Source: Agrococcus sediminis (lineage in GTDB: Bacteria > Actinomycetota > Actinomycetes > Actinomycetales > Microbacteriaceae). From it: 64,000 nt of DNA. The stretch's first letter is position 1. Every line of letters begins with the position of its first letter. The DNA lies in contig NZ_VOIR01000011.1 in NCBI RefSeq assembly GCF_007923295.1, positions 434,001 to 498,000 of the forward strand, read 5' to 3'. A program made the position numbers and the translations under genes. Positions 229 to 14,752 of this stretch are shown here, piece after piece. The notes under the pieces were generated by a model. That model was not told the origin of the DNA. It worked only from the letters and a program-made list of their open reading frames with translations, and did not search any database.

Positions 229-273
229 GGCGGTGTCCTCCAGGGTGACGGGGCTTCCGAGCCTAGCCGCGCC

Positions 274-344
274 GTTCGTCGACCGGCTCAGTGCGCCGCC
301 GGCCGGATTATCCGGCCGGGCGGGCATCTGGCCGGTTGGCGAAC
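274..344. repeat. 71-bp nested palindromic element, copy A
   Basis: The outer arms are GTTCGTCGACCGG at 274-286 and CCGGTTGGCGAAC at 332-344. The inner palindrome has perfect ten-base arms, CCGGCCGGAT and ATCCGGCCGG, around one T (299-319). The same architecture, exactly 71 bp long, occurs at 7508-7578 and 14001-14071. This copy lies between two minus-strand genes: just past the stop of the DUF3054 gene and upstream of the aminopeptidase start. Confidence 0.85.
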
Positions 345-372
345 GACGGATGCGGTGCCCGGCTCGGGCGGG

Positions 373-777
373 TCAGCGCGCGCGGGCGCGTGCGCGCCGC
401 ACGGCCGCCGCGACCAGCCGCCAGCCGACGAGCAGCACGAGCAGCGTCACCGTCGCGATGATCACGAAGGGCAGCGCTGTGCCCTGGCCGAGCAGCAGAC
501 GCAGCAGCATGCCGCCGCCGACCGTGACGAGCCACACCGGCACGCCGGTGCGCAGCGGCGCGAGCGGCGCCCGCCACGCGACGCTCACGACCCAGCCGAC
601 GGCGAGGGCGACGAGGAACGGCCACGCCGTCATCGCGATGCCCCAGACGCTGACCGCGTCGGGGCTGTGCGTCGCGAAGCCGACCCCAGCGAAGAGCGTG
701 ACGAGCGCGGCGTCGGTGAGCAGCGCGATCACCGCCGGGCGCACGGTCACCCCGGTCTCGGTCTTGTCGATCGCCAC
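373..777 (-). CDS. DUF3054 family membrane protein
   Basis: A 134-residue integral membrane protein with about four hydrophobic segments (residues 15-35, 45-65, 75-95, 102-122), ending in a basic tail RRARARAR. The layout and the T-A-W-P-F-L motif match the DUF3054 family, which is common in actinobacteria and has no known function. The start is GTG at 777. It has no ribosome-binding site but has TAGCGT six bases upstream, which indicates a leaderless transcript. A 71-bp palindrome follows the stop codon. Confidence 0.75.
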   Translation of the reverse strand: MAIDKTETGVTVRPAVIALLTDAALVTLFAGVGFATHSPDAVSVWGIAMTAWPFLVALAVGWVVSVAWRAPLAPLRTGVPVWLVTVGGGMLLRLLLGQGTALPFVIIATVTLLVLLVGWRLVAAAVRRARARAR

Positions 778-783
778 GACGCC

Positions 784-789
784 ACGCTA
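784..789 (-). promoter_or_regulatory. -10 hexamer of leaderless DUF3054 transcript
   Basis: TAGCGT on the minus strand, followed by six bases and then the GTG start at 777. This matches the TANNNT -10 of actinobacterial leaderless promoters. No convincing -35 box is visible. Confidence 0.6.
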
Positions 790-897
790 TCCGCGTGGTC
801 CCATGCCCCACGGCAGACAGATGTGCGGGCAAGGGCTCGCAACCTGGGCGGATGACAGCCGATGCTCACACATCTACCGGCGACCCGGCGCTGAGGG

Positions 898-1377
898 TCA
901 GCGCAGCGCGCGCTTGATCGACTCGCGCTCCGCCTCGAGCTTGCGCACGCGGCGGCCCAGCTTGAGCAGCCGGATCGAGCCCAGCAGCGCCGCGACGAGC
1001 ACGCCCGCGATCGCCGCGAAGAGCATCGCGACGCCCAGCGGCAGGCTGAACTCGAAGCCGAGGTAGGCGAAGTCGGCGGGCACGTTGTTCTGCAGGATGA
1101 AGATGAGCAGCAGCACGAGGATGAGCGCGCCGAGGATGAGCGCGATCCACGTGCCGCCGCTGACGCCCTGCTTCTGGTGCCCGTCGAGCGAGGAGTCGAG
1201 CACGACGCGCGGACGGTCGTCGTGCACCGGGGTCGTGCTCGCCGTGGTGTCGGCGGTCGTGCCCGTCGTGGCACCGGAGGCGGGCATCGCGGCCGTCGTG
1301 CGGGTCGGCTCGGCGGGCGAGCGGGTGCCGTCGGTGCGGCGGATGTCTCGGTCGTCGGCGTCGGACGTGGCGTCCAT
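898..1377 (-). CDS. LapA (DUF1049) domain membrane protein
   Basis: A 159-residue protein. Residues 1-60 are a low-complexity Thr/Ala/Pro-rich cytoplasmic region. Two transmembrane helices follow (about 75-95 and 110-135) with the QNN motif after the first helix (LIFILQNNVPADF). A basic C-terminal helix LLKLGRRVRKLEAERE looks coiled-coil-like. This is the LapA/DUF1049 arrangement. LapA acts in lipopolysaccharide assembly in Gram-negatives; its role in actinobacteria is unknown. The ATG at 1377 has a GAGGAG ribosome-binding site. Confidence 0.75.
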   Translation of the reverse strand: MDATSDADDRDIRRTDGTRSPAEPTRTTAAMPASGATTGTTADTTASTTPVHDDRPRVVLDSSLDGHQKQGVSGGTWIALILGALILVLLLIFILQNNVPADFAYLGFEFSLPLGVAMLFAAIAGVLVAALLGSIRLLKLGRRVRKLEAERESIKRALR

Positions 1378-1473
1378 GCGGCTGCTCTCCTCAAGTCGCG
1401 GCGGTGCTGCGGGTCTCTCTGCTCGGAGCGTACGCCTGCACGCTGGACGCCAGCGGGCAGCGCACCGCGACGG

Positions 1474-1704
1474 CTATCGCGGGCGAGGTGCGGGCAGCGG
1501 CGGCACCGGCTTCGCCAGCAGCACGTCGGCCAGGGCGATCTCGACCTCGCCGCGACGGGTGGCGACCGTGCACGTCACCGCGTCGACCGCGACCAGGTCG
1601 CCGAGCGCATCCGTCGCCCGGTGCGTGTCGCCGTGGAGGCGGTAGCGCACGACGACGCGGGTGCCGAGGGGGAGGGCGGCGAGGGAGTCGGCGGCGCTGG
1701 TCAC
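1474..1704 (-). CDS. Small SH3-like domain protein
   Basis: A 76-residue protein starting with GTG. The GTRVVVRYRLHG...TDALGDLVAVDAVTCTVATRRGEVEIALADVLLAKPVPPLP pattern (shown in parts) is a small beta-barrel like the SH3-type domain at the amino end of Rv0428c-like actinobacterial GNAT acetyltransferases. Here it is a stand-alone protein with no acetyltransferase domain attached. Such proteins are sometimes labelled FeoA-like because of the fold, but no iron-transport gene is nearby. The function is unknown. It lies 61 bases past the stop of the SDR gene and may be co-transcribed with it. Confidence 0.6.
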   Translation of the reverse strand: MTSAADSLAALPLGTRVVVRYRLHGDTHRATDALGDLVAVDAVTCTVATRRGEVEIALADVLLAKPVPPLPAPRPR

Positions 1705-1765
1705 GGGGTGGTCTCGAGACGCGGCCTGCGGCCGCTCCTCGACCAGCGGGGGCTGGAGGCGGCGA

Positions 1766-3268
1766 TCACCACGAGCCCGGCGCGTAGTCCTTCAGGAAGA
1801 CGCCGAAGAGGTCCTCGCCCGCCTCGCCGCGCACGATCGGGTCGTAGACGCGGGCGGCGCCGTCGACGAGGTCGAGGGGCGCGTGGAAGCCCTCCTCCGC
1901 GAGCCGCACCTTCGTGAAGTGCGGCCGCTCGTCGGTGATCCAGCCCGTGTCGACGGCGGTCATGAGGATGCCGTCGCGCTCGAACATCTCGCGCGCGCTC
2001 GTGCGCGTGAGCATGTTGAGCGCCGCCTTCGCCATGTTCGTGTGCGGGTGGCCGGGGCCCTTGTAGCCGCGGCCGAAGACGCCCTCCATCGCCGAGACGT
2101 TCACGATGTAGGTGCGGCGCGCGGTCGAGGCGGCGAGCGCCGGCCGCAGCTTCGACACCAGCAGGAACGGCGCCGTCATGTTGGCCAGCTGCACCTCGAG
2201 CATCTCGAGCGGCTCGACCTGGTCGACGTGCTGCGTCCAGCTGTTGCTGTGCTCCTCGTCGGGCACGAGACCGCCTGCGTCGATCGCGGTGCCGGCGGCC
2301 AGCCGCTCGAGCGACGACGAGCCCGCGGCCATCGCCTGCTGCGTGAGCTCGTCGGCCGTGCGGGCGGCGCTCGCGAGGATCGGGTGCGCCGCGACCGAGG
2401 CGGCGAGGGCGAGCGGATGCGCGTCGTTCGTGTGCCCGAAGGTCACGAGCTCGGGGAGCGGGCCGTCGGGCAGCGGCGCGAGCTCGGCCTCGACGAGCGG
2501 CGCGTAGGCGCCGGGCGAGCGCCGCACCGTCTGCGCCGCGTTGTTGATGAGTATGTCGAGCGGCCCCGCCGCGGCGACCTCCTCGGCGAGCCCTACCACC
2601 TGCGCCGGGTCGCGCAGGTCGATGCCGACCACCTTGAGCCGGTCGAGCCACTCGCCCGAGTCGGGCAACGACGAGAACCGCCGCACCGCATCCCTCGGGA
2701 ACCGCGTGGTGATGGTCGTGTGGGCGCCGTCGCGCAGCAGCCGCAGCGCGATGTGCATGCCGATCTTCGCCCGGCCGCCCGTGAGCAGCGCGCGCTTGCC
2801 GGTGAGGTCGGTGCGGGCGTCGCGCTTGGCGTGGCTCATGGCCGCGCACGTCGGGCAGAGCTGGTGGTAGAACGCGTCGACGAGCGTGTACTGCTGCTTG
2901 CAGATGTAGCAGCCACGCGAGCGGATGAGCGTACCGGCGGTGGGCGCGGCGGCCCTGGTGGCGAGCGGGATGCCCCGCGTCTCGTCGTCGATGCGGTCGG
3001 GGGCTCCCGTGGCGGTCGCGGCGACGACGGCGCGGTCGGCGGCCTGGATGCGCGCGTGCTTCGCCTTGCGGCTCGCGAGCTTGACCTCCTTGAACATGTT
3101 GGCCGTCGCCTGCCGCACGGCCACGTAGGCGGGGTCGTCGCGGTCCATGCGGTGGAGCGTCTCGAGCACGCGCAGCGTGGTGGCGACGTCGTCGGGCGAG
3201 AGCGTCGCGGGCGCATCTGCGGCGGCGTCTTCGGGCGCGCCGGAGGGGACCGAGTGGTGGGGGAGCAC
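1766..3268 (-). CDS. SDR-fold protein with N-terminal zinc finger, catalytic Tyr missing
   Basis: A 500-residue protein. Residues 25-110 form a helical region rich in charged residues. A treble-clef or ribbon-like zinc site follows (C120, C123, C138, C141: GCYICK...LCPTC). A Rossmann domain begins near 160 with a modified nucleotide motif TGGRAKIG, followed by the SDR motif INNAA. The usual Ser is present (NVSAMEG) and the Lys is in TNMAKAALN, but the Tyr of the canonical YxxxK is Thr here and the loop between Ser and Lys is long. Classical SDR oxidoreductase chemistry is therefore doubtful; binding or regulation by NAD(P) is possible. The GTG start at 3268 has TAGAAT five bases upstream. Confidence 0.75.
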   Translation of the reverse strand: MLPHHSVPSGAPEDAAADAPATLSPDDVATTLRVLETLHRMDRDDPAYVAVRQATANMFKEVKLASRKAKHARIQAADRAVVAATATGAPDRIDDETRGIPLATRAAAPTAGTLIRSRGCYICKQQYTLVDAFYHQLCPTCAAMSHAKRDARTDLTGKRALLTGGRAKIGMHIALRLLRDGAHTTITTRFPRDAVRRFSSLPDSGEWLDRLKVVGIDLRDPAQVVGLAEEVAAAGPLDILINNAAQTVRRSPGAYAPLVEAELAPLPDGPLPELVTFGHTNDAHPLALAASVAAHPILASAARTADELTQQAMAAGSSSLERLAAGTAIDAGGLVPDEEHSNSWTQHVDQVEPLEMLEVQLANMTAPFLLVSKLRPALAASTARRTYIVNVSAMEGVFGRGYKGPGHPHTNMAKAALNMLTRTSAREMFERDGILMTAVDTGWITDERPHFTKVRLAEEGFHAPLDLVDGAARVYDPIVRGEAGEDLFGVFLKDYAPGSW

Positions 3269-3273
3269 AGGCG

Positions 3274-3279
3274 ATTCTA
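3274..3279 (-). promoter_or_regulatory. -10 hexamer upstream of zinc-finger SDR gene
   Basis: TAGAAT on the minus strand, five bases from the GTG at 3268. The spacing is one base shorter than in the other leaderless promoters here, so the true start could differ by a codon or so. Confidence 0.4.
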
Positions 3280-3331
3280 CCGCCGACGGATTCTGCGGCG
3301 CAGGCCGTCGGCCGGGGTGCTCGGGCGCGGC

Positions 3332-3679
3332 TCAGCCCGCGCCACCCCCCGACCCCGCGAACGGATGCAACCAGGCGGTGACCGCGAGCAGCGCGACCGC
3401 GAAGCCGATGAGCTGCACGGTCGTCCGGGTGGTGCGTCGCGACATGGCGGTGCGCTCGCGCACGAGCAGCACCACCGCACTGACCGCTGCGATCGCGGCC
3501 CAGGCCGCGCACGCCCAGCCGGCGACCCACAGCAGCTCGGCGGCGCCCTCCGGTGCTCGCATCGCGAGCGACGCGAGCGGCAGCAGCAGCGCGGCCAGCG
3601 CCGCGCCGACGGACGCCATCCCGGCGGGCACGCGGGCCGGTGCGGCCGGTGCCGCGTGCTGAGGCGCTGCGAGGTGCAT
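3332..3679 (-). CDS. Small hydrophobic membrane protein, unknown
   Basis: A 115-residue protein with an Ala/Pro-rich amino end and three predicted transmembrane helices (about 20-40, 48-70, 86-103), ending in a Gly-rich tail. No family is recognised. The ATG at 3679 was chosen over upstream in-frame ATGs because TACCGT lies exactly six bases before it, the leaderless pattern seen repeatedly in this window. Confidence 0.6.
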   Translation of the reverse strand: MHLAAPQHAAPAAPARVPAGMASVGAALAALLLPLASLAMRAPEGAAELLWVAGWACAAWAAIAAVSAVVLLVRERTAMSRRTTRTTVQLIGFAVALLAVTAWLHPFAGSGGGAG

Positions 3680-3685
3680 GCTCGC

Positions 3686-3691
3686 ACGGTA
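3686..3691 (-). promoter_or_regulatory. -10 hexamer of leaderless transcript (gene 3332-3679)
   Basis: TACCGT, then GCGAGC, then the ATG at 3679, read on the minus strand. Confidence 0.55.
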
Positions 3692-3773
3692 GTCCCGTCG
3701 CCGACACCGTGGGCTCAGGGCTCCGCCAGCATCCGCTCCGACGACTGTGCGTTCGATTTTTCCGTTTCTCGAG

Positions 3774-3779
3774 TATGGT
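3774..3779 (+). promoter_or_regulatory. -10 hexamer of toxin-antitoxin operon
   Basis: TATGGT seven bases before the ATG at 3787. The preceding stretch (about 3749-3770) is unusually T-rich for this window. It may include a -35 such as TTCGAT sixteen bases upstream. The layout implies a leaderless mRNA. Confidence 0.5.
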
Positions 3780-3786
3780 GAGCGGT

Positions 3787-4314
3787 ATGAGCACCGCAAC
3801 GGCCGCAGGTAACGGCTCCAAGAACGCCCGCACATACCTGCCCGACCAAGGCAATCGCGAACAACTGCTCAACTTCGCAGAGTTCATGCGTGAGTTGGAA
3901 GCGCATCTCGCGCAGAACTCCAGCCAGGCGGCCCTCGTGGATCCCACGGGCGAAGCTCGTCCGATCCCAGAGGAGATCTTTCGAATCCTGGATCAGGTGA
4001 CGAACGCGTTGGCCGCGGGCAAGGGCATCACTGTCGTGCCACAAGGCATGACGATGACGACGCAGCAGGCAGCGGACTTCCTTGGCGTCAGCCGACCGAC
4101 GCTGGTTCGTCTTCTCGAGTCCGGGGCGATCCCGTTCGAGCAGCCCGGGCGGCACCGGCGCGTGCGACTGCATGACCTCCTCGACTACCAGCAGTCGTTC
4201 AGTGCCCAGCGACGCGAGGCGCTCAGGGATCTCGCACGAGCCAATCTGGACGCCACGGAGAAGACAGGATCGCCGAGTCAGATTCAGCGGCTTTCGGAGA
4301 TGCCGGGCGAGTGA
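3787..4314 (+). CDS. HTH (excisionase/MerR-like) antitoxin of a PIN toxin-antitoxin pair
   Basis: A 175-residue soluble protein. The central helix-turn-helix (about residues 79-125) contains MTTQQAADFLGVSRPTLVRL followed by the wing GRHRRVRLHDLLDY, the HTH_17/excisionase type. The amino half is helical and may dimerise; the acidic C-terminal third is where antitoxins of this type usually embrace the toxin. Its stop overlaps the start of the PIN gene by four bases (GTGA), so the two are translationally coupled. The expected job is to neutralise the PIN nuclease and repress its own promoter. The two genes are less extreme in GC than their neighbours, suggesting acquisition by transfer. ATG 3775 is an alternative start. 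Confidence 0.8.
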   Translation: MSTATAAGNGSKNARTYLPDQGNREQLLNFAEFMRELEAHLAQNSSQAALVDPTGEARPIPEEIFRILDQVTNALAAGKGITVVPQGMTMTTQQAADFLGVSRPTLVRLLESGAIPFEQPGRHRRVRLHDLLDYQQSFSAQRREALRDLARANLDATEKTGSPSQIQRLSEMPGE

Positions 4315-4862
4315 GGTTTCCCGCACTCTTCGACACCAACGTGCTCTACGGGGCGCTGCTGAACGATTGCATCCTGACGCTCGCCGAGCACGGCCTCTTC
4401 CGGCCACTCTGGTCGCAGGACATCCTGACCGAGCTTCGGCGCAACCTGGTCGCGAACGGCGAACGCGCAGCGCTCGTGGAGAAGCGCATCTGCACGATGG
4501 TCGCCTTCTTCCCCGACGCCATGGTCAGCGGGCATGAGTCACTGATCGACCAGATGACGAACGATCCGAAAGACCGGCACGTCCTCGCCGCAGCCGTCCG
4601 AGGCGGTGCCGAGGTGCTCGTCACCTTCAATGGCAAGGACTTCCCCGCCGACTCGACCGAAGCGTACGACGTAGAGGTGGTGCATCCGGACGACTTCCTG
4701 CTCGACCAGCTCGATCTCTACCCCGGGGCGACCATCCGCGCCCTCGAGGAGGTCGTTGCGGACTACGACTCGCCCGCGATGACGATGGACGACTATCTCC
4801 TGGCCTTGGCGCGCGCTGGAACTCCCCGATTCGCTGACGCAGTGCGCGACCGCTTGGACTGA
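4311..4862 (+). CDS. PIN-domain toxin (VapC-like ribonuclease)
   Basis: A 183-residue protein starting with a GTG that overlaps the antitoxin stop. The PIN-fold acidic residues are visible: D8 in FDTNVLYGA, E41 in SQDILTELRRN, and D85/D88 in NDPKDRHVLAAAV. VTFNGKDF follows, then a C-terminal helical extension to about residue 180. PIN toxins are magnesium-dependent ribonucleases that cut tRNA, rRNA or mRNA when freed from the antitoxin. All key acidic residues are kept, so it should be active. The specific target cannot be read from sequence. Confidence 0.82.
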   Translation: MRFPALFDTNVLYGALLNDCILTLAEHGLFRPLWSQDILTELRRNLVANGERAALVEKRICTMVAFFPDAMVSGHESLIDQMTNDPKDRHVLAAAVRGGAEVLVTFNGKDFPADSTEAYDVEVVHPDDFLLDQLDLYPGATIRALEEVVADYDSPAMTMDDYLLALARAGTPRFADAVRDRLD

Positions 4863-4921
4863 CCGCCGCTTCGAAGTGCACCGGCGCATCTCGACCGTCA
4901 CCGAGCATGAAGGACCTGCCA

Positions 4922-7432
4922 ATGATGCCCCTCCTCGACCACGCCCCAGCGACCTGGGATCCCGACGCCGCGTTCGAGGCGTTCGCCGCCTGGTCGGCCG
5001 AGCGCGGCCTGCCGCTCTACCCGGCGCAGGAGGAGGCGCTGATGGAGGTCGTCAGTGGCGCGAACGTCATCCTCTCGACGCCCACCGGCACCGGCAAGTC
5101 GCTCGTCGCCACCGGCGCGCACTTCGCCGCGCTGGCGCAGGGGAAGCGCACCTTCTACACCGCGCCCATCAAGGCACTCGTGAGCGAGAAGTTCTTCGCC
5201 CTCGTCGAGGTCTTCGGCGCCGAGAACGTCGGGATGGTCACCGGCGACTCCTCCGTCAACGCCGACGCCCCGATCATCTGCTGCACCGCCGAGATCCTCG
5301 CCAACCTCGCGCTCCGCAACGGCGAGCGCACCGAGGTCGACCAGGTCGTCATGGACGAGTTCCACTTCTACGGCGACCCGCAGCGCGGCTGGGCGTGGCA
5401 GGTGCCGCTGCTCACGCTGCCGCACGTGCAGTTCATCCTCATGTCGGCCACGCTCGGCGACGTCACCCGCATCGCCCGCGACCTGACCGAGCGCACCGGC
5501 CGCGAGACCGCGCTCGTCACCGGCGTCGAGCGGCCCGTGCCGCTCAGCTTCGAGTACGCGATGACGCCCGTGCACGAGACCATCGAGGAGCTGCTCGCCA
5601 CCCAGCGCGCCCCCGTCTACATCGTGCACTTCGCGCAGGCCGCCGCGCTCGAGCGGGCGCAGGCGCTCACCTCGGTGAAGATCATCGACCGCGAGCAGCG
5701 CGACCGCATCGCCGAGGCGATCGGCGAGTTCCGCTTCACCACGCGCTTCGGGCAGACGCTCTCGCGGCTCGTGCGCAGCGGCATCGGCGTGCACCACGCG
5801 GGCATGCTGCCGAAGTACCGCCGCCTCGTCGAGCAGCTCGCGCAGCAGGGCCTGCTGCGGGTCATCTGCGGCACCGACACCCTCGGGGTCGGCATCAACG
5901 TGCCCATCCGCACCGTGCTCCTGACGGGCCTCACGAAGTTCGACGGGCAGCGGATGCGTCAGCTCACGGCGCGCGAGTTCCACCAGATCGCGGGCCGTGC
6001 CGGCCGGGCCGGCTACGACACCGCCGGCACGGTGGTGGCGCAGGCGCCCGAGCACGAGGCCGAGAACGCGAAGCAGCTCGCCAAGCTCGGCGACGACCCG
6101 AAGAAGCGGCGCAAGCTCGTGCGCAAGAAGGCGCCCGAGGGCTTCGTCTCGTGGGGGCAGCCGTCGTTCGAGAAGCTCATCGACGCCGATCCTGAGCCGC
6201 TCGTGTCGCACATGCAGATCAGCCACTCGATGCTGCTCAACATCATCGGCCGCGGCGGCGACGCCTTCACCGAGGTGCGCGAGCTCATCGAGGCCACCCA
6301 CGAGCCGCGCGACTCGCAGCTCGCGCTGCAGCGCCGCGCGCTCGCGATCTACCGCACCCTCCGCACCGCCGGCGTCGTGGAGCAGCATCCCGACCCCGAC
6401 GACGCCGACGCGCCCCCGCGCATCCGCCTCACCGTCGACCTGCAGCCGAACTTCGCGCTCAACCAGCCGCTCTCGCCGTTCGCGCTCGCGGTCATCGACA
6501 TGCTCGACCCCGCCGACCCGACGCATCCGCTCGACGTCATCTCGGTCATCGAGTCGACGCTCGACGACCCGCGGCCGATCCTGTCGCAGCAGCAGTTCCT
6601 CGCCCGCGGCGAGGCCGTCGCGGCGATGAAGGCCGAGGGCATCGAGTACGAGCAGCGCATGGAGCTGCTCGAGGCGGTCACGCATCCGAAGCCGCTCGAG
6701 GAGCTGCTCACCGAGGCGCTCGCGGTCTTCGCGTCGTCGCAGCCGTGGGTGTCGGACTTCGCGCTCTCGCCGAAGTCGGTGGTGCGCGACATGTGGGAGC
6801 GGGCGATGACCTTCGCCGACTACGTGCAGCACTACGGGCTCGCGCGCAGCGAGGGGCTCGTGCTGCGCTACCTGTCGGACGCCTACCGGGCGATCCGCCA
6901 GACGGTGCCCGACGAGGCGAAGACCGACGAGCTGCTCGACCTCATCGAGTGGCTCGGCGAGGTCGTGCGGCAGGTCGACTCGAGCCTGCTCGACGAGTGG
7001 GAGCAGCTCATGCACCCGACCGAGCCGGGCGAGGCGCCCATCGCGCCGCCTCCACCGCCGTCGGTCGTGGCCAACCCGCGCGCGTTCCGGGTGCTCGTGC
7101 GCAACGAGCTGTTCCGGCGCGTGCAGCTCGCGGCGCTCGACAAGGTCGACGAGCTCGGCGAGCTCGACGCGGCCTCCGGCTTCGACGCCGACGCGTGGGC
7201 CGACGCGCTCGACGCCTACTTCGACGAGCACGGCTCGATCGGCACCGGCGCCGACGCCCGCAGCTCGCGCATGCTCGTCATCGACGAGGGGCCGCACGAG
7301 TGGCAGGCGCAGCAGATCCTCGCCGACCCGGCGGGCGACCACGACTGGCGCATCTGGGCGACCATCGACCTGCAGGCGTCGGCGGATGCCGGCGCCGCGG
7401 TCGTGCGCGTGACGCGCGTCGGGCGGCTGTAG
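4922..7432 (+). CDS. DEAD/DEAH-box helicase, Ski2-like, DUF3516 C-terminal domain
   Basis: An 836-residue SF2 helicase. Walker A is STPTGTGKS (about residues 52-60), Walker B is VVMDEFHF, motif III is LMSATLG, and motif VI is HQIAGRAGRAGYD. The C-terminal half matches the DUF3516 region found only in actinobacterial relatives of Ski2/Mtr4. RNA or DNA unwinding with ATP is expected; the cellular role is unknown. The ATG at 4922 is preferred over the one at 4907 because AAGGA (4910-4914) sits seven bases before it and lies inside the longer reading frame. The gene follows the toxin by 59 bases on the same strand but belongs to the core genome in style. Confidence 0.88.
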   Translation: MMPLLDHAPATWDPDAAFEAFAAWSAERGLPLYPAQEEALMEVVSGANVILSTPTGTGKSLVATGAHFAALAQGKRTFYTAPIKALVSEKFFALVEVFGAENVGMVTGDSSVNADAPIICCTAEILANLALRNGERTEVDQVVMDEFHFYGDPQRGWAWQVPLLTLPHVQFILMSATLGDVTRIARDLTERTGRETALVTGVERPVPLSFEYAMTPVHETIEELLATQRAPVYIVHFAQAAALERAQALTSVKIIDREQRDRIAEAIGEFRFTTRFGQTLSRLVRSGIGVHHAGMLPKYRRLVEQLAQQGLLRVICGTDTLGVGINVPIRTVLLTGLTKFDGQRMRQLTAREFHQIAGRAGRAGYDTAGTVVAQAPEHEAENAKQLAKLGDDPKKRRKLVRKKAPEGFVSWGQPSFEKLIDADPEPLVSHMQISHSMLLNIIGRGGDAFTEVRELIEATHEPRDSQLALQRRALAIYRTLRTAGVVEQHPDPDDADAPPRIRLTVDLQPNFALNQPLSPFALAVIDMLDPADPTHPLDVISVIESTLDDPRPILSQQQFLARGEAVAAMKAEGIEYEQRMELLEAVTHPKPLEELLTEALAVFASSQPWVSDFALSPKSVVRDMWERAMTFADYVQHYGLARSEGLVLRYLSDAYRAIRQTVPDEAKTDELLDLIEWLGEVVRQVDSSLLDEWEQLMHPTEPGEAPIAPPPPPSVVANPRAFRVLVRNELFRRVQLAALDKVDELGELDAASGFDADAWADALDAYFDEHGSIGTGADARSSRMLVIDEGPHEWQAQQILADPAGDHDWRIWATIDLQASADAGAAVVRVTRVGRL

Positions 7433-7507
7433 GCGCAGGCCGCTCGCCAGCTCGCTCGCCTACCCGCCTCCTCGCCCGCCAGCCCGCCTCGCTCGACTGC
7501 AGCCACC

Positions 7508-7578
7508 GTTCGTCAACCGGCTCCGTGCGCGTCCGACCGGATAGTCCGGTCGGCGACGCACTGGGCCGGTCGACGAAC
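7508..7578. repeat. 71-bp nested palindromic element, copy B
   Basis: The outer arms are GTTCGTCAACCGG (7508-7520) and CCGGTCGACGAAC (7566-7578). The inner palindrome is CCGACCGGA and TCCGGTCGG around TAG (7533-7553). GTGCG and CGCAC pair between the two stems. It lies between the convergent ends of the helicase and the M20 amidase, where it could act as a bidirectional terminator. Confidence 0.87.
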
Positions 7579-7644
7579 GACGGATGCGCGGGGGCGGGCG
7601 GCGCGAGCCGCGCGGCGCGCGCGGGGCGCGCGGGCGACGCTGCG

Positions 7645-8916
7645 TCAGCCGCCGGGCGTGAACGCGGCCGCCGAGCCCAGCTCGCCCGCCACGAGGCGCG
7701 CGGTCACCTCGGTCAGCAGCGCGACGCCGGCGACGCTGTCCTCGTCGCTCGTGCGCTCGCCCTCGTTGTGCGAGATGCCCTCGATGCTCGGCACGAAGAG
7801 CATGACGGTCGGCGCGACGTCCTTCATGTTCGTCGAGTCGTGGCCGGCGACGGTCATCGTCGGCGCGTGCGTGAGCCCGAGCGCCGCGGCGGCCGAGCGC
7901 GCGAGCTCGACGCCCTCCGGCTGGTAGGCGAGCAGCCCCCACTGATGCGTGAGCCGGCGCTCGATCGTGACGCGGGCGCGCTCCTCGATCGCGGCGAGGC
8001 GCTCCTCGAGCAGCGCGTTGGCGCGCTCGAGCACGGCCTCGTCGGGGGAGCGGAGGTCGAGGTTGATCTCGACGAGCCGCGCGACGGTCACGGGGGAGTT
8101 GGGCGCGAGCTCGAGCTCCGAGACCGACGAGTGCAGCATGCCCTCCGGCAGCTCGTCGGTGAGCTCGCGCGCGGCGACGATGACGAGCGCCGCGCCGTAG
8201 AGCGCGTCGCGCCGGTCGGCCATCACGGTCGAGCCCGTGTGGCTCTGCTCGCCGTGCACGACGATGCGGTACTTGCTCGCCGCCCACGTGCGGTCGACGA
8301 GCCCGATCGTGGTGCCCGACTCCTCGAGGCCGCGGCCCTGCTCGATGTGGATCTCGGCGTACGCCGCGACGGGCGGCGGCGTGAGGTCGAGCGCGTCGCC
8401 CGGCTCGGCGATCGCCTGCGCCACCGTGACGCCCGCGCGGTCGGTCGCCGCGAGCGCGGTCTCGAGCGGCAGCTTGCCGGTGAGCACCGAGCTGCCCATC
8501 ATGCTGGGGGTGAACCGGCTGCCCTCCTCGTTGAACCAGTTGACGACCGCGAGGTTGCACGCGGGCTGCAGCGAGCCCTCGCGCACGCGCCGCGCGACCT
8601 CGCGGGCGGCGTGGGCCGCGGCCAGCACGCCGTAGGCGCCGTCGAAGCGGCCGGCGAGCGGCTGCGAGTCGAGGTGCGAGCCGACGAGCACGTAGGGCGC
8701 GCCCGGCACGAGCTCGAGCAGCCCGAACTGGTTCGAGACCGCGTCGTGCCGCACCTCGAAGCCGGCGCGCTCGAGCCATCCGGCGAACCACGCGCGCGTC
8801 TCGTGGTCGGCGGCGCTGCCGGCCTGCCGCTCGACGCCGCCGCCCGGGGTCGCGCCGAAGCCCGACATGGTCGCGAAGTCCTCGAGGAAGTCCTCGGCCT
8901 GCTCGTGCTGCTGCAT
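7645..8916 (-). CDS. M20-family Zn hydrolase (allantoate amidohydrolase / N-carbamoyl amino acid hydrolase type)
   Basis: A 423-residue cytosolic hydrolase. Metal-binding and catalytic motifs are present: VGSHLDSQ (His), GRFDGAYGV (Asp), VNWFNEEGSRF (paired Glu) and YAEIHIEQGRGLE (His). The dimerisation insert lies around residues 215-330. This is the hydantoinase/carbamoylase subgroup, which cleaves C-N bonds of ureides or N-carbamoyl amino acids. The substrate is not decidable from sequence. An AAGGAG ribosome-binding site precedes the ATG at 8916. It lies 62 bases downstream of the amidohydrolase gene, so the two form an operon under the divergent PucR regulator. Confidence 0.85.
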   Translation of the reverse strand: MQQHEQAEDFLEDFATMSGFGATPGGGVERQAGSAADHETRAWFAGWLERAGFEVRHDAVSNQFGLLELVPGAPYVLVGSHLDSQPLAGRFDGAYGVLAAAHAAREVARRVREGSLQPACNLAVVNWFNEEGSRFTPSMMGSSVLTGKLPLETALAATDRAGVTVAQAIAEPGDALDLTPPPVAAYAEIHIEQGRGLEESGTTIGLVDRTWAASKYRIVVHGEQSHTGSTVMADRRDALYGAALVIVAARELTDELPEGMLHSSVSELELAPNSPVTVARLVEINLDLRSPDEAVLERANALLEERLAAIEERARVTIERRLTHQWGLLAYQPEGVELARSAAAALGLTHAPTMTVAGHDSTNMKDVAPTVMLFVPSIEGISHNEGERTSDEDSVAGVALLTEVTARLVAGELGSAAAFTPGG

Positions 8917-8978
8917 GGGTGCTCCTTGCTGCGCGCCGTCGTCGGCGCTCGTGGTGGGTCGGATGCGCGGGGTCGCGA

Positions 8979-10610
8979 TCAGCGCTCGGCGAGCGTGCCG
9001 TGCACGGCCTCGCCGCCGACGAGGGTCGCGACGACGTCGATCGCGCCGATGCGCTCGGTCGGCACGTGGTGGGGGTCGTCGGCGAGCACGACGATGTCGG
9101 CGAGCATGCCCGGCGCGAGCACGCCCTTGCGGCCGCCCCAGCCGGTCGCGGCGGCGGAGCCGGCGGTGCAGGCGCGCAGCGCCTCGTCGATGGTCAGCCG
9201 CTCGTCGGGGCCGTAGGGCGCGCCGCTCTCGGTGCGGCGCTCGACGAACGCCTGCACGATGCGCAGCGGCTCGCCGGGCGCGACGGGCCGGTCGGAGCTG
9301 CCCGCGAGCACGCCGCCCGCGCGCAGCACGCTCGCCGCCGGGTAGGAGCGCAGCGTGCGCTCGGGCCCCAGCCGCTCGGCCATGCCGTCGCCGTACTCGG
9401 CGATGAAGCGCGGCTGCGGCACGAGCGCGACGCCGAGCTGCGCCATGCGGGCGATCTGGTCGGGGCGCACGACGCCGCCGTGCTCGATGCGGCTCGGCAG
9501 CGGGCGCGCGCCGTGCAGCCGCTGCGCCTCGTCGATGAGGTCGAGCGCGAAGTCGATCGCCGCGTCGCCGATGGCGTGCAGCGCGAGCGCCCAGTCGCCG
9601 CCGGCGGCGGCGAGCACCTGGGCGCGCATCGCCTCGGGGTCGCCCTGCAGGTAGCCGTGGTTGCCGTGATCGTGCGCGTAGTCCTCGCTCATCGCCGCGG
9701 TCGAGCCGAGCAACGAGCCGTCGGTGAACACCTTGACGGGGCCGAGCTGCAGCCGGTCGTCGCCGGCGCCGCTGCGGATGCCGGCGGTGAGCCCGATCGC
9801 GCGCGGGTCGTCATCATGGCCGGCGAGCTCGACGAGCGCGTCGAGCGTCACCATCGCCTGCGTGCGGGTGCGCAGCAGCCCCCGCTCGCGGGCCCGCTGG
9901 TAGGCGGCGAACTCGCGCGGCGAGTGGCCGATCCAGCCGCCGGCGATGCCCGCGTCGGTGACCGACGTGATGCCCTCCCGCGCGTACTGCGCGCTCGCCC
10001 GGCCCAGCGCATCCTCGATCGCGGTGAGCGGGTCGGGCAGCAGCACGTCCTGCACGATCCGCATCGCGTTCTCCTCGAGCAGACCGGTCGGCCGCCCGCG
10101 GTGATCGCGCGCGATGACGCCGCCGTCGGGGTCGGCGCGCGGGCCGTCGTCGATGCCGATGCGCCGCAGCCCCTCGCCGCTCATCGTCGCGGCGTGCCCC
10201 GAGGCGTGCTTGATCCACACGGGCCGCCCGCCCGACGCGCGGTCGAGCGCGTCGCGGTCGAGGCGGCCGGCGAGGCCGAGGGGGTTGAAGCCGGATGCGA
10301 CGACCCAGTCGTGCGGGTCGGTCGCGACCCGCTGCTCGATGCGCCGGTAGACCTCGTCGGGCGTCGTCGCGCCGGCGAGGTCGAGCTCGGCGAGCGTCTG
10401 GCCGAACCAGACGCTGTGCGCGTGCGCGTCGTTGAAGCCGGGCAGGAGCACGGCGCCGTCGGCGTCGAGGCGCCGATCGGCGTGCACGCCGTCGAGCTGC
10501 TCGTCGAGGCCCACGATGCGGCCCGCCCAGATGCCGACGCGGCTCGCCGTCGGCCGCGCGTCGTCGCCGGTGAGCACTCGGGCGTTGTCGATGATCGCGT
10601 CGATGCGCAC
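8979..10610 (-). CDS. YtcJ-like amidohydrolase (TIM-barrel metal hydrolase)
   Basis: A 543-residue enzyme of the amidohydrolase_3 type. The metal ligands are visible: FNDAHAHSVW (HxH), the candidate carbamylated Lys in VKVFTDGSLLG, His in ALHAIGDAAID, His in SRIEHGG and Asp in GSSDRPVAPG. The reaction is hydrolysis of an unidentified amide or ester. The GTG at 10610 is the likely start, since AGGAGG lies six bases upstream; the longer frame from the ATG at 10643 has no ribosome-binding site. It is transcribed with the M20 amidase, opposite the PucR gene. Confidence 0.85.
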   Translation of the reverse strand: MRIDAIIDNARVLTGDDARPTASRVGIWAGRIVGLDEQLDGVHADRRLDADGAVLLPGFNDAHAHSVWFGQTLAELDLAGATTPDEVYRRIEQRVATDPHDWVVASGFNPLGLAGRLDRDALDRASGGRPVWIKHASGHAATMSGEGLRRIGIDDGPRADPDGGVIARDHRGRPTGLLEENAMRIVQDVLLPDPLTAIEDALGRASAQYAREGITSVTDAGIAGGWIGHSPREFAAYQRARERGLLRTRTQAMVTLDALVELAGHDDDPRAIGLTAGIRSGAGDDRLQLGPVKVFTDGSLLGSTAAMSEDYAHDHGNHGYLQGDPEAMRAQVLAAAGGDWALALHAIGDAAIDFALDLIDEAQRLHGARPLPSRIEHGGVVRPDQIARMAQLGVALVPQPRFIAEYGDGMAERLGPERTLRSYPAASVLRAGGVLAGSSDRPVAPGEPLRIVQAFVERRTESGAPYGPDERLTIDEALRACTAGSAAATGWGGRKGVLAPGMLADIVVLADDPHHVPTERIGAIDVVATLVGGEAVHGTLAER

Positions 10611-10648
10611 GCGCTGCCTCCTGCTGCTGCTCGGGGTCTCCATTCAAT

Positions 10649-10716
10649 CTGGGCATCGCTACAGCGACAATGGGAGCGCGGCACGGGAACGGCCGCCTGG
10701 AGTGTGCAAGCGCACA
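10649..10716. promoter_or_regulatory. Candidate operator module, divergent amidohydrolase/pucR region
   Basis: Contains CTGGGCAT (10649-10656), ACAATGG (10668-10674) and the inverted repeat TGTGCAAGCGCACA (10703-10716). CTGGGCAT and TGTGCAA recur upstream of the MFS transporter at 11918 and 11972 with the same 54-base offset. The two copies probably bind the same regulator, most simply the adjacent PucR protein. Confidence 0.45.
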
Positions 10717-10749
10717 GTGCCGCAGGAGCGGCCGGATCGGGGAGGCATC

Positions 10750-11898
10750 GTGGAGGACCCAGGGGCGGCGCGCTCGCCGGAGTGGGTCGCGCTCGTCGAC
10801 CGGCTCGACGAGGAGATGGACGGGATCGTCGACGACTTCGTGCGGGCGTTCGGCGAGCGCTCGCTCTACGACCGCGACGCCGTGCCCGCGCACGACCTGC
10901 GCGACACCGCCGACGCCACCTTGCGCATGCTCGTCGCGCGCATGGCCGGCCGCACGCCCACCCAGGACGAGGCGGCGCTCGCGACCACGCTCGGCGTGCG
11001 CCGGGCACGGCAGGGCGTGCCGCTCGACGCGCTGCTCGAGGCGGTGCGGCTCGACTTCCGGGTGCTGTGGCGCTGGCTGCAGCGCCTCGCGGGCGACGCG
11101 CAGCGGGCGGCGCTCGTCGACCAGGTCGAGTGGGTGCTCACCGTCGTCGAGCAGTACGTCGGCGAGGTGCAGCAGTCGTTCCTGCGCGAGACGGCCGCGA
11201 TGCAGCGCGACGCGAGGCTCGCGACCGAGCGGCACCTCGCGCGGCTGCTGAGCGGCGACGCCCCGAGCGCGACCGCCGTGGAGGGCATCGCGCAGGGCCT
11301 CGGCGTCGCGGCGGATGCCGAGTTCGACCTCATCGCCGTGCCCGTCGACCGCATCGAGCTCGCGCAGCGCGCGGCGGCCGCGGCGCTCGCGGCCGGCGCC
11401 GTCTTCGGCCACAGCCACGGCGACGCCTACTGCCTCTTCTGGGTGCGCGGCGAGGAGCGGCTGACCGACGAGCTCGCCGAGCTGCCGGGCGTGCACCTGC
11501 AGCGCCTCGCGGGGCTCTCCGCGGTCGCCGGCGGTGCGCGCACCGCGCTCGCACTGCTCACGACGACGCCCGCGCCCCAGCGGCTCGTCGGCATCGACGA
11601 GCTGTGGCCCGTCGTCGCGGCCGGCCGGCTCGCCGAGCTCGTGCCCGGCTTCGTCGAGCTGCGGCTCGCGCCGCTGCTGGAGCTCACCGACTACCAGCGC
11701 GACGCGATCGTCGAGACGGTGCGCGCCTTCCTCGAGACCGGCTCCGTGCACGCCACCTCCAAGCGCGTCTTCTGCCACCGCAACACCGTGCTCAACCGGC
11801 TTGCCGCGTTCCGCGAGCGCACGGGGCTCGATGTGCAGGTGCCCGTCGACGCGGCCCTCGCGCACGTGCTGCTCGCGGCCGACGGCGCTCCGCGCTGA
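10750..11898 (+). CDS. PucR/CdaR-family transcriptional regulator
   Basis: A 382-residue regulator. The amino half is helical (RsbR/PucR-type sensor, residues 1-150). The middle is a GGDEF-like or CdaR-like region. The C-terminal HTH_30 domain includes YQRDAIVETVRAFLETGS, followed by KRVFCHRNTVLNRLAAF, the hallmark of PucR/CdaR regulators of purine, ureide and sugar-acid catabolism. The GTG at 10750 has GGGGAGG four bases upstream. It is divergent from the hydrolase operon and followed by the transporter, so local control of both is likely. Confidence 0.85.
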   Translation: MEDPGAARSPEWVALVDRLDEEMDGIVDDFVRAFGERSLYDRDAVPAHDLRDTADATLRMLVARMAGRTPTQDEAALATTLGVRRARQGVPLDALLEAVRLDFRVLWRWLQRLAGDAQRAALVDQVEWVLTVVEQYVGEVQQSFLRETAAMQRDARLATERHLARLLSGDAPSATAVEGIAQGLGVAADAEFDLIAVPVDRIELAQRAAAAALAAGAVFGHSHGDAYCLFWVRGEERLTDELAELPGVHLQRLAGLSAVAGGARTALALLTTTPAPQRLVGIDELWPVVAAGRLAELVPGFVELRLAPLLELTDYQRDAIVETVRAFLETGSVHATSKRVFCHRNTVLNRLAAFRERTGLDVQVPVDAALAHVLLAADGAPR

Positions 11899-11917
11899 GG
11901 AGTCCACGCCCGCTCGA

Positions 11918-11978
11918 CTGGGCATACGCACAATCGGCCGAGGCGAATCCGCGTCGCACCGCCATTGAGGATGTGCAA
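11918..11978. promoter_or_regulatory. Candidate operator module upstream of MFS transporter
   Basis: CTGGGCAT (11918-11925), ACAAT (11930-11934), CCATTG (11962-11967) and TGTGCAA (11972-11978). The first and last words repeat the module at 10649-10716 with identical spacing, which links the transporter to the hydrolase operon as one regulon. Confidence 0.45.
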
Positions 11979-12121
11979 ACGGCTCCGACACGATGGCAGG
12001 ACGTCGCCGCACGCGTTCCGCACGAGTGTCGACGGCCGCAGGACGCACCCTGCGGGCACCGCCGTCCCAGCACCCGGCACCCGGTAGGGCACGCGCCCCC
12101 GGTCTCGAGGAGGAGAGCAGC

Positions 12122-13456
12122 ATGAACCAGGCAGCGCACGACGTCACGCCCCCGGGCGACGAGATCGTCGTCAAGCCCAGAGACGTCCGCCGCATCGCGA
12201 CCGCCGCCTTCGTCGGCACCGCGCTCGAGTGGTACGACTACTTCCTGTTCGGCACCGCGGCCGCGCTGGTGTTCAACCGGCTCTTCTTCACCGAGCTCGA
12301 CCCGACCGCCGCGGTGCTCGCGTCGCTCGCCACCTTCGGCGTCGGCTTCGCCGCGCGCCCCATCGGCGCCTTCTTCTTCGGCGTGCTCGGCGACCGCGTG
12401 GGCCGCCGCCCGACGCTCATCCTCACGATCGTGCTCATCGGCGTCGCCACGGGCGTCATCGGCGTGCTGCCCACCTACGCCGACATCGGCATCATGGCCC
12501 CGGTGCTGCTCGTCGTGCTGCGCCTGCTGCAGGGCCTCGCCGTCGGCGGCGAGTGGGGCGGCGCGACGACCATCGCGATCGAGCACGCCCCCGTCAAGCA
12601 GCGCGCCCGCTACGCGGCGCTCGTGCAGGTCGGCTCGCCCGTCGGTACGCTCATGTCCTCGGGCGCCATCGCGCTCGTGCTGCTCTTCCCGCCGGCCGAG
12701 TTCGACGCCTGGGCGTGGCGCCTGCCGTTCCTCGCCGCCTTCCCGCTGCTGGGCATCGCGCTGTGGATCCGCCTCAAGGTGGAGGAGTCGCCGATCTTCG
12801 AGGACCTCGTGCGCCTCGACAAGCGCGCCAAGGTGCCGGCGCTGCAGGTGTTCACGAAGGCCTGGGGGCGCCTCATCGTCGCGGTGGCGGCCGCGTTCCT
12901 CGGCGTCGGCGGCTTCTACGTGATGAACACGTTCGTCGTCAGCTACGCCGCGAACACGCTCGGCATCGACCGGCAGATCGCGGTGAACGCGACGCTGATC
13001 GCCGCCGTCGCGCAGATCGTCGTCATCCTGCTCTGCGGCCGGCTCGCCGAGCGCGTCGGCCCGGGTCGCGTCACCTTCTGGGGCGGCCTCGCGACCGCGG
13101 CAGCCGCCGCGCCGCTGTTCTGGCTCATCGACACGGGCTCGCCCCTCGCGATCACGCTCGCCGTGACCGCCGGCATCTCGCTGCTGACGATCACCTACGC
13201 CGTCACCGGTGCGCTGCTCACCGAGCTCTTCCCGCCGGAGCTGCGCTACAGCGGCGTCTCGCTCGGCTACAACATCGCCGGCGCGCTCTCGGGCTTCCTG
13301 CCCTTCATCGCGACCTGGATGATCAGCCTCAGCGAGGACGCCGTGTCGTGGCCGGCAGTCGTGATCCTCGCCATCGTCGCGCTCATCACCGCGGCGGGCG
13401 GCTTCTTCGGCGAGCGCCTGCGCGTCAAGGACAAGGAGCTCGTGCACTCGGCCTGA
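12122..13456 (+). CDS. MFS transporter, metabolite:H+ symporter (MHS) type
   Basis: A 444-residue protein with twelve predicted transmembrane helices. The MHS-family N-terminal signature [11 protein letters not shown] is present, with the loop motif [10 protein letters not shown] between helices 2 and 3 and GGEWGGA in helix 4. Relatives import organic acids, betaines or similar small solutes with protons. AGGAG upstream fixes the ATG at 12122. Its place beside two hydrolases and PucR suggests it imports their substrate. Confidence 0.85.
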
Positions 13457-13471
13457 GCCGGGCAGTGCACG

Positions 13472-13505
13472 CTGCGCCGGTCGCCGGGAATGGCGGCCGG
13501 CGCAG
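13472..13505 (+). terminator. Hairpin between MFS and reductase genes
   Basis: The nine-base stem CTGCGCCGG (13472-13480) and CCGGCGCAG (13497-13505) encloses a 16-base loop. It lies 16 bases past the transporter stop and has no T-run. It could be an intrinsic terminator of the actinobacterial kind or a processing hairpin. Confidence 0.5.
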
Positions 13506-13542
13506 TCGCGTTCTCCCGACGGACATCGAGCGAAGGAGCACC

Positions 13543-13986
13543 ATGCCGCTGCAGGGCGAGTACGCACCGAGCACCTCCGAGTGGGCGCGCACGCAGGCCG
13601 AGACCTACGAAGCCTCCGGGGGCACCGAGGGCAACCTCCTGCGCGACCGGCCGATCATCGTGCTGACGAGCGTCGGCGCGAAGACCGGCAAGCTGCGCAA
13701 GACGGCGCTCATGCGCGTCGAGCACGACGGCGAGTACGCGGTCGTGGCGTCGCAGGGCGGTGCCCCGACGCATCCGGTCTGGTACTGGAACCTCACGAAG
13801 CACCCGCACGTCGAGCTGCAGGACGGCGCCGAGAAGCACGACTACCTCGCGCGCGAGCTCGAGCCGGGCGCCGAGCGCGACGCCTGGTGGGCGCGCGCGT
13901 GCGAAGCGTGGCCGCCGTACGCCGACTACCAGCAGAAGACCGAGCGCCTCATCCCGGTCTTCGTGCTCACGCGCACCGACGCCTGA
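13543..13986 (+). CDS. Nitroreductase/deazaflavin-dependent (Ddn-like) oxidoreductase
   Basis: A 147-residue split-barrel protein with the family motifs [14 protein letters not shown] (cofactor phosphate contact) and [12 protein letters not shown]. Members bind F420 or other deazaflavins or FMN and reduce quinones or nitroaromatics. It has full family length and no signal peptide. The ATG at 13543 has GAAGGAG upstream. A 71-bp palindrome begins 15 bases after the stop. Confidence 0.85.
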
Positions 13987-14000
13987 GCCGCGGCGCCGCC

Positions 14001-14071
14001 GTTCGTCGACCGGTTCCGTGCGGGGCCGACCGGACTATCCGGCCGGGCGCGCACCTGGCCGGTCGACGAAC
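14001..14071. repeat. 71-bp nested palindromic element, copy C
   Basis: Perfect outer arms GTTCGTCGACCGG (14001-14013) and CCGGTCGACGAAC (14059-14071). The inner arms are CCGACCGGA and TCCGGCCGG around CTA (14026-14046). GTGCG and CGCAC can also pair. It sits between the convergent ends of the Ddn-like gene and the SDR gene, as copy B does between its neighbours. Confidence 0.9.
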
Positions 14072-14105
14072 GGGGAGAGCGGATGCGCGGCGCGCGCGGC
14101 GCGCG

Positions 14106-14735
14106 TCAGTCGAACGAGGGCTGCGGCCCGAACTCGGCGACCAGCTCGGCCGCGAGGTCGGCGACGTCGGTCGTGCCCGCGAAGTCGCGCTCGGGCTGGG
14201 CCGCCCGGTCGGCATCCGACACGAGCGCCTTCACGCGCTTGACGACGACGCGCGCCGGCGTCGCGCGCAGCGCGTGCCCGACGGCCGCGACCCACGCCTC
14301 GGCGGCGGCCTTGAGTGCCGCATAGTTGGCGTTCCCGGCCGTGGGGTGCTCGACGCCCGTCGACGACACGATCGCGACGACCCCCGCATCCGACCGCCCG
14401 ATCGCGTCGGCGAACGCCCGCGTCGTGTTGCGCAGCGTGCCGACGACCCGCGCCTCGAGCCACGCCCAGTCCTCGTCGGTCTGCCCGGCGAGCCCGCCGC
14501 CGCCGCGCCAGCCGCCGACGAGGTGCACGAGCCCGTCGAGCTCGCCCACCTCGTCGGCGAGCGACCGCACCGCCTCGAGGTCGGTCAGGTCGCACGCGAA
14601 GCGCTCGCTCGCGTCGACCATGCCGAGCCTCCCCGCGTCGGAGCCGACCGCGATCACGTGGTGGCCCGCCTCGATGAGGGCGGATGCGGTGGCGTGCCCG
14701 AGCGCGCTCGTGGCGCCGGCGATGAGGATGCGCAT
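14106..14735 (-). CDS. Short-chain dehydrogenase/reductase
   Basis: A 209-residue SDR. The nucleotide motif is GATSALGHATA (residues 6-16), the active-site Ser is in VSSTG, and the catalytic pair is in NYAALKAAAEAW. The fold is compact, with no extra domain, and the substrate is unknown. The ATG at 14735 has no ribosome-binding site; CAGACT six bases upstream could be the -10 of a leaderless mRNA. Alternatively it is read with the membrane gene that ends 17 bases upstream. Confidence 0.82.
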   Translation of the reverse strand: MRILIAGATSALGHATASALIEAGHHVIAVGSDAGRLGMVDASERFACDLTDLEAVRSLADEVGELDGLVHLVGGWRGGGGLAGQTDEDWAWLEARVVGTLRNTTRAFADAIGRSDAGVVAIVSSTGVEHPTAGNANYAALKAAAEAWVAAVGHALRATPARVVVKRVKALVSDADRAAQPERDFAGTTDVADLAAELVAEFGPQPSFD

Positions 14736-14752
14736 GCAGACAGTCTGCCCCG

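Follow-up and report, generated by a model that had tools for sequence, protein, structure and literature searches.

Three palindromes of 71 bp lie beside gene ends within a 64,000-nucleotide stretch of the Agrococcus sediminis genome (the window; assembly GCF_007923295.1, contig NZ_VOIR01000011.1, positions 434,001 to 498,000). These palindromes are probably solo copies belonging to a selfish DNA family of Agrococcus with two components, a DNA dyad and a DUF559 nuclease gene, the latter evolving fast and situated between copies of the dyad. We base this on the repeat family itself, its fixed length, its conserved positions, the loss of orthology signal at those positions, the lack of an RNA-strand preference, one lineage-specific insertion, and the linkage between palindromes and nuclease gene, all of which were observed. 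In the following, G numbers denote genomes, with G000 being that of the window, and L numbers denote analyzed stretches.

Palindromes of fixed length at conserved sites

Copy 1 (273 to 345, core 279 to 339) lies between two minus-strand genes, with the stop of a DUF3054 gene (373 to 777) before the element and an M18 peptidase gene beyond it. Copy 2 (7507 to 7579, core 7513 to 7573) is between convergent genes for a DUF3516 protein and an M20 peptidase, and copy 3 (14000 to 14072, core 14006 to 14066) is between convergent genes for an F420H2-dependent quinone reductase and a short-chain dehydrogenase; no strand is assigned to any of the three. The first-pass annotation had described three copies of one nested plan, and all were present where it placed them, each reaching 73 bp if one further pair at either end is counted. 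Compared to shuffled sequences, the three copies folded with z scores of -8.6, -9.3, and -7.1 (0 of 200 shuffles for each). A 23-base arm pattern, allowing up to 3 mismatches, gave 5 matches compared to 0.05 expected.

A covariance model (R1) built from 13 copies of the window's genome detected 15 copies in this 2.74-Mb genome (nine on contig C1, three on C12, one on C14, and two on C15), every one of them 73 bp, and an additional weak 49-nt match (E = 0.49). Both orientations were seen, as told by eye from a CTCC arm opposite a CCAG arm. Eight copies are between codirectional genes, four between convergent genes, and two between divergent genes, and one is inside a PMT glycosyltransferase gene, in its 3' part. 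Genes were called with a small codon-usage script and not taken from an annotation, and the copy in L039 was scored as codirectional although the caller had extended a start codon into it. The gene contexts described earlier are correct for the three window copies; genome-wide, 2 of 15 copies are between divergent genes and 1 of 15 is inside a coding sequence. None of the 17 called genes at 1 to 16 kb of the window matched a transposase family. The 31 genes adjoining the 15 copies also included no transposase-like gene; their Pfam content was a mixture of ordinary housekeeping genes, and a regulon was rejected on this ground (at least one small gene, beside the copy in L040, is not included). 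A search of five loci against Rfam at the gathering threshold gave no RNA family match.

Across the genus, the constant part of the element is a 61-bp core, TCRAC-N51-GTYGA, whose interior differs between species. This plan comes from 53 rows selected for that length, which aligned without gaps, with the types gathered by synteny and half-site rules; 62-bp forms also exist. Palindrome types include TCAACCGG, TCAACGGAGC, TCAACGTC, TCAACGTG, and TCAACGGCC, and several types can coexist in one genome. An exact pattern scan of a collection of 84,980 species returned 25 stretches, 24 from Agrococcus and one from Microvirga. The latter, from Microvirga aerilata, fits the 61-bp pattern exactly at one place (L094:528-588). 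A phage origin was rejected, as scanning viral contigs for the exact pattern gave no matches.

When R1 was applied to 60 relatives (the window's genome included), 15 matched, 14 of them in the genus; the match outside it (G051) looked unrelated by eye. A broad 61-bp covariance model trained on 61-nt rows (R2) matched 21 of 24 genus genomes, with counts on both strands from 78 (G001) down to 1 (G023) and no matches in G009, G003, and G015. In the family, scanned with stricter filters and 21 candidates scored per genome, 9 of 249 genomes matched; five were Agrococcus with 11 to 21 matches, and the other four had one weak, shorter place each (43 to 57 nt). Among the distinct R2 matches in three genomes, 64 of 69 were exactly 61 nt, a share that leans towards 61 because R2 was trained on 61-nt rows. 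The view of the element as a genome-wide, mobile-like repeat of an unrecognized kind is thus upheld: further copies were found in the window's genome and in its relatives, no description of the family was found, and neither outcome named beforehand as speaking against it, a lack of more copies or a loss of pairing in relatives, occurred.

Orthologous sites keep the element but not its sequence. Locus A, between imuB-like and dnaE2-like genes on the same strand, and locus B, the site of copy 2, hold the element in many species, each with a species-specific sequence; at locus B, it is also present in G008 and G020. The element is absent, leaving a short gap, at both loci in G017 (6 bp at locus B) and at locus A in G006. 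The mean identity of 85 two-sided pairs of orthologous copies was 0.560, compared to 0.564 for all copy pairs between the same genomes and 0.694 for paralogs within a genome. Orthologous identity was higher than the own-genome mean in 12 of the 85 pairs and higher than the other-genome mean in 43. This filtered comparison replaced a first one that contained false elements in coding DNA; 19 of 121 candidates were removed (nearest-neighbor identity of <0.60), and of the 102 copies in the set, 8 are inside called open reading frames and about 5 are probably still coding false positives. G008 and G020, a close pair, keep the orthology signal at three sites (0.79) and lose it at locus A (0.57). G008 has the inner module GGGCATCG..CGATGCCC at four distinct places, locus A among them, which suggests copying between sites. 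In G002 (L147 and L174), the genes that are convergent around the window's copy at 7508 are about 17 kb apart and both still have an element at the 3' end; a rearrangement may have passed through the elements.

The differences between copies had been thought to keep base pairing. Within the window's genome, this was not supported: the 13 copies were 89.7% paired, identical to the shuffled value of 89.7%, and there were 5 double-change cells compared to 5.9 after shuffling. Mismatches are independent between the two halves, and therefore these copies alone show no selection for pairing. In contrast, compensatory change between species was strong. We counted 175 double-change cells compared to 73 after shuffling in 34 rows and 270 compared to 108 in 53 rows, and 0 of 500 shuffles reached the observed number in either case. 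The percentage paired is biased because the rows were collected partly by structure-aware rules, and the better evidence for pairing is given by the double changes and by those sites that synteny alone had located. Selection on RNA would favor G-U pairs. On the transcript strand of 49 copies between codirectional genes, there were 67 G-U and 68 A-C oppositions. Since G-U is not favored over A-C, the dyad is best seen as DNA, and selection seems to act at the DNA level.

The copy in the PMT gene is a lineage-specific, in-frame insertion. It encodes 24 in-frame residues within a variable linker, and by the model it was present in the window's genome and at that place in 0 of 19 other genus stretches. 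The G023 stretch was excluded because its anchor match was off target, and G005, G010, and G020 gave only short query matches. A 63-nt model match in the corresponding G001 stretch lies 1.5 kb from the insertion place.

A DUF559 nuclease gene between palindromes

Two copies separated by a single gene are a recurrent arrangement, and several genomes have the same gene in this position, which encodes a DUF559 protein of about 290 amino acids. We found this nuclease gene in 13 genomes, with palindromes on both sides in 12, 11 of them by the 61-bp model (R2 matches on both sides at E < 1e-3 in G001, G002, G004, G006, G007, G008, G011, G012, G016, G020, and G013). The flank matches of G013 are partial (45 to 51 nt), the second flank of G004 and both flanks of G011 are decayed, and three flanks, in L083 and L086, were among the training rows of the model. 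The two 62-bp palindromes around the G017 nuclease were identified by the half-site rule only, having been missed by a generic palindrome scan and not scored by the model. The loci of G004, G006, G011, G017, and G018 are a fairer sample because they were fetched by synteny alone, while most other loci were fetched for their elements; flanks were two-sided in four of these five and one-sided in the other. On one side of the G002 nuclease gene, three tandem element copies occur at 104-bp spacing (L086:1677-2022).

One syntenic locus was compared in 15 genomes. The nuclease gene was present in 11 (G001, G002, G004, G006, G007, G008, G011, G016, G017, G018, and G020) and absent in G000, G014, G021, and G023. 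Genomes with the nuclease at this locus had 17 to 78 R2 matches, compared to 30, 13, 3, and 1 in those without it (two-sided P of 0.010, kinship ignored). The G012 unit lies off this locus; the usual locus was sought at 545-640 kb in G012 and not found. The unit is at a gene end whose counterpart in the window is an empty site (1378 to 1473). Nothing is inserted there in the window's genome, G007 and G020 have a solo element, G016 has a degenerate one, and G012 holds the whole palindrome-nuclease-palindrome unit, with a far flank that differs. The DUF559 gene of G013 is likewise off the syntenic locus (L198:470-1620), between two similar palindromes of 45 to 59 bp with the same GGATAATCC center and unrelated outer sequence. 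Its product is 26 to 32% identical to the Agrococcus set and 45% identical to that of a second DUF559 gene in G018. This unit suggests that the system extends beyond the 61-bp type.

The nucleases of G006 and G017 form a separate clade, 58% identical to each other and 40 to 46% identical to the main set, and carry TCAACGGCC and TCAACGTC palindromes; the two nuclease clades thus differ in their palindromes. Identity within the main set is 52 to 69%, except for G008-G020 at 81%, and the flanking DNA is 78 to 92% identical. When the nuclease-flanking palindromes were compared to the solo copies of 12 genomes, the own genome ranked first for G002, G007, and G016 and second for G001 (after G010), G008 and G020 (after G017), and G012 (after G018); one of the three G007 flank candidates in this ranking is a coding false positive.

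The predicted structure of the nuclease had a mean pLDDT (predicted local distance difference test) of 86 and a pTM (predicted template modeling score) of 0.66. It matched the AbiEi antitoxin 6y8q over 199 columns (target template modeling [TM] score of 0.50, root mean square deviation of 6.1), and its C-terminal part matched the I-Bth0305I catalytic domain 3r3p (target TM score of 0.78). Sequence searches matched 3hrl (E = 1.4e-6) and 3r3p (E = 2.5e-6), PADLOC gave weak matches to homing endonuclease and AbiEi models, and NCBIfam gave sub-threshold matches only. Five residues, E187, D214, D226, H231, and D240, are invariant in eight nuclease sequences, and we take them to be the EDxHD letters. 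By sequence and fold, the protein has an I-Bth0305I-like catalytic domain with conserved acidic and histidine residues, and the model predicts that this domain is joined to an AbiEi-like half. According to a review (PMC3943268), the EDxHD enzyme I-Bth0305I appears to act as a dimer whose target is nearly 60 bp long. The agreement between this target length and the 61-bp dyad is suggestive and does not amount to a test.

Proposed mechanism and competing explanations

We propose that the AbiEi-like half, as a dimer, would bind the 61-bp dyad and that the I-Bth0305I-like half would cut at the dyad or at an unoccupied site, after which repair would copy sequence from another palindrome copy. As an outcome, the repeat would spread with its length kept, and the copies of a genome would follow the type recognized by its nuclease. 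The fixed length may reflect a two-fold protein ruler, and the conserved sites with rewritten sequence may reflect cutting and repair copying. The DNA-level dyad, the fast change of the nuclease, and the flanked nuclease genes would be explained by a pair resembling the REPtron, the combination of repetitive extragenic palindromic (REP) repeats with a REP-associated tyrosine transposase (RAYT), but with a homing-type nuclease. More tentatively, and with somewhat more doubt than confidence, we suggest a new mobile system in which a homing-type nuclease, encoded between two copies of the 61-bp dyad that it recognizes, seeds solo palindromes chromosome-wide and continually rewrites them through cleavage and copying during repair. 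Nuclease and palindrome types would co-evolve at such a pace that orthologous sites stay in place while their sequence is replaced.

Several points weigh against a selfish pair of dyad and nuclease. Binding and cleavage by the nuclease and copying by repair are steps that we infer. The weak points are the shared locus of most units and the mixed signals in G017 and G018. Because the eleven units are common to one locus, they are not independent events. G017 has a homogeneous TCAACCGG family (0.84, n = 5), yet its nuclease at the usual locus has TCAACGTC palindromes. The G018 nuclease has at most one weak flank (E = 0.12), and the second, distant DUF559 gene of G018 (251 amino acids; L295/L296) is without the standard palindrome and has GTGCACATCTCAGCC-like inverted sequences in its flanks, which rules out that DUF559 genes are always flanked. 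The G011 nuclease gene is broken, and pairs one gene apart enclose other genes too (L257, L259, L262, and L266). In the window's genome, the 287 kb searched (about a tenth of the genome) gave no nuclease, none of the 15 copies has one closer than 1.5 kb, and the usual nuclease locus is a 47-bp gap; these 15 copies may therefore be orphans or use a nuclease elsewhere. Even so, their homogeneity (0.78) equals that of any large set. The flanks of the PMT insertion are hypervariable, and a target-site duplication was not established. Concerted change could also stem from a co-evolving binding protein: G008 and G020 keep the orthology signal at three sites and lose it at one.

The palindromes might instead resemble miniature inverted-repeat transposable elements (MITEs) moved by some other enzyme, with the nuclease gene merely a passenger between two copies. 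This is consistent with linkage mostly at one syntenic locus, with the other genes enclosed by two elements, with the homogeneous copies of the window's genome, where no nuclease was found in the part searched, and with the PMT gene insertion, which is lineage specific as expected of a MITE. However, linkage was seen again at another site in G012 and, with other palindromes, in the distant G013, nuclease clade and palindrome type change together, and no transposase-like gene was seen among the 31 neighbors. We consider a passenger role unlikely. As for an autonomous transposon with which a MITE would share its ends, the one gene found between elements in many genomes is the nuclease, which is no known transposase. 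The first-pass suggestion of a REP- or MITE-like element or a terminator can be retained for mobility and MITE-like insertion; the element is no REP and is not well explained as a terminator.

In five single-contig genomes, 75 of 94 copies were within the origin-proximal half, with the origin placed by dnaA. The Kolmogorov-Smirnov P values were 0.0003, 0.13, 0.044, 0.00004, and 0.0008, that of G012 (0.13) not being significant alone, and the tests are not independent because positions are partly common by descent. Positions were compiled by hand, those of G002 and G017 include a few weak matches, the three tandem copies were counted singly, and the length taken for G001 was 2.95 Mb (2.962 in another count). 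Origin clustering, a fixed-length DNA dyad, and conserved positions would suit the binding sites of a co-evolving, chromosome-organizing host protein with the dyad as its operator. However, genomes differ in copy number between 0 and about 39, with G009, G021, and G023 near zero, several types occur within one genome, and one copy interrupts a coding gene. This makes such a protein a rather improbable explanation.

Placed relative to called genes, 94 copies comprise 49 between codirectional, 36 between convergent, and 9 between divergent genes, and 39 of the 49 codirectional copies are nearer the upstream stop (median of 21 bp). Bidirectional intrinsic terminators, or 3' RNA-stabilizing hairpins common to many genes, would be placed in this way. 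However, the nearly equal numbers of G-U and A-C oppositions on the transcript strand speak against a role in RNA, and a terminator scan of the window from 1 to 15000 found 3 sites (2.1 expected), none of them at the three copies. No hairpin followed by a U run was thus seen at the three copies, nor in the flanks of 25 bases that were read by eye at 46 loci. Some copies lie between divergent genes or inside genes, locus A lies between two genes on one strand, and termination needs neither a fixed 61-bp length nor species-wide change of sequence; we regard terminators as very unlikely.

REP or REPIN repeats mobilized by a RAYT (Y1 HuH) transposase are also palindromic and extragenic, with many copies near 3' ends, species-specific types, and an enzyme gene flanked by repeats, but PF01797 (Y1) was found in 0 of 24 genus genomes compared to 5 of 14 controls, and this explanation, to which we give hardly any chance, is already refuted unless RAYT was lost from every sampled genome. 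By definition, REPs are palindromes of 20 to 40 bp that carry an unpaired tag of four nucleotides on one side (PMC3733652), whereas the Agrococcus element is a single large hairpin with symmetric ends (TCRAC/GTYGA) and no one-sided tag. Another repeat, distinct from the palindromes and with arms of CTGGTTGAG / CTCGACCAG and TCGAAGCC or GGTCTCGTGACGC, was seen in L124 and L155 (G014), L125 (G016), L166 (G021), and L167 (G009); it looks like REP pairs, though the search for Y1 transposases in the genus found none. Integron attC sites were considered because they are hairpins at gene ends that are alike within a species, and they were dropped, as the copies are dispersed at conserved housekeeping loci (an integrase was not searched for).

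Two other features of the window's genome were recorded. At 3787 to 4862 of the window, an HTH_17 gene overlaps a PIN_3 domain gene and resembles a toxin-antitoxin pair. L022:1435-1780 (contig C1, about position 529300) contains 66-bp tandem repeats with CGTTCGGCGACCGG, perhaps coding, that are unrelated to the palindromes.

Relation to known systems

In logic, the proposed nuclease-palindrome pair comes near REP/RAYT; its enzyme and the anatomy of its repeat set it apart. REPtrons, too, consist of extragenic palindromes scattered close to the ends of genes, in types that differ between species, together with an enzyme gene that has its own repeats on both sides and co-evolves with them (PMC3733652, PMC8266576). 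In contrast to the Y1 HuH transposase, the Agrococcus enzyme is DUF559/I-Bth0305I-like with an AbiEi-like DNA-binding half, and its repeat is one fixed 61-bp dyad without the one-sided GTAG tag. With EDxHD homing endonucleases such as I-Bth0305I, it shares the catalytic domain in sequence and fold, and the length of its dyad is close to that of the target, nearly 60 bp, that I-Bth0305I appears to bind as a dimer (reviewed in PMC3943268). However, the Agrococcus gene does not interrupt its target or lie in an intron or intein (intron and intein motifs were not searched for) but is between two complete intergenic palindromes, with many solo copies elsewhere, and its protein has the AbiEi-like half. 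This N-terminal half has the fold of the AbiEi antitoxin of type IV toxin-antitoxin systems (6y8q) but is fused to a nuclease (an AbiEii partner was not searched for). CGTC-tagged REPs and Rickettsia palindromic elements likewise have no known transposase, and some are inside genes, but they have stems of 8 to 9 bp, loops of 4 to 5 nt, and a CGTC tag, compared to a core of about 29 pairs and a linked nuclease in Agrococcus (PMC3733652, in the portions consulted).

Within the parts of the literature that our searches covered, no link between DUF559 and palindromic repeats was found. For palindrome families without a known enzyme, such as the CGTC REPs in the consulted portions of PMC3733652, the nuclease link points to a candidate enzyme class. 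If true, the pairing would give members of a family of unknown function (DUF559) a role and would offer matched nuclease-target pairs with long targets. It would also mean that bacterial genomes have, in addition to RAYT, another way of carrying a population of tiny selfish palindromes.

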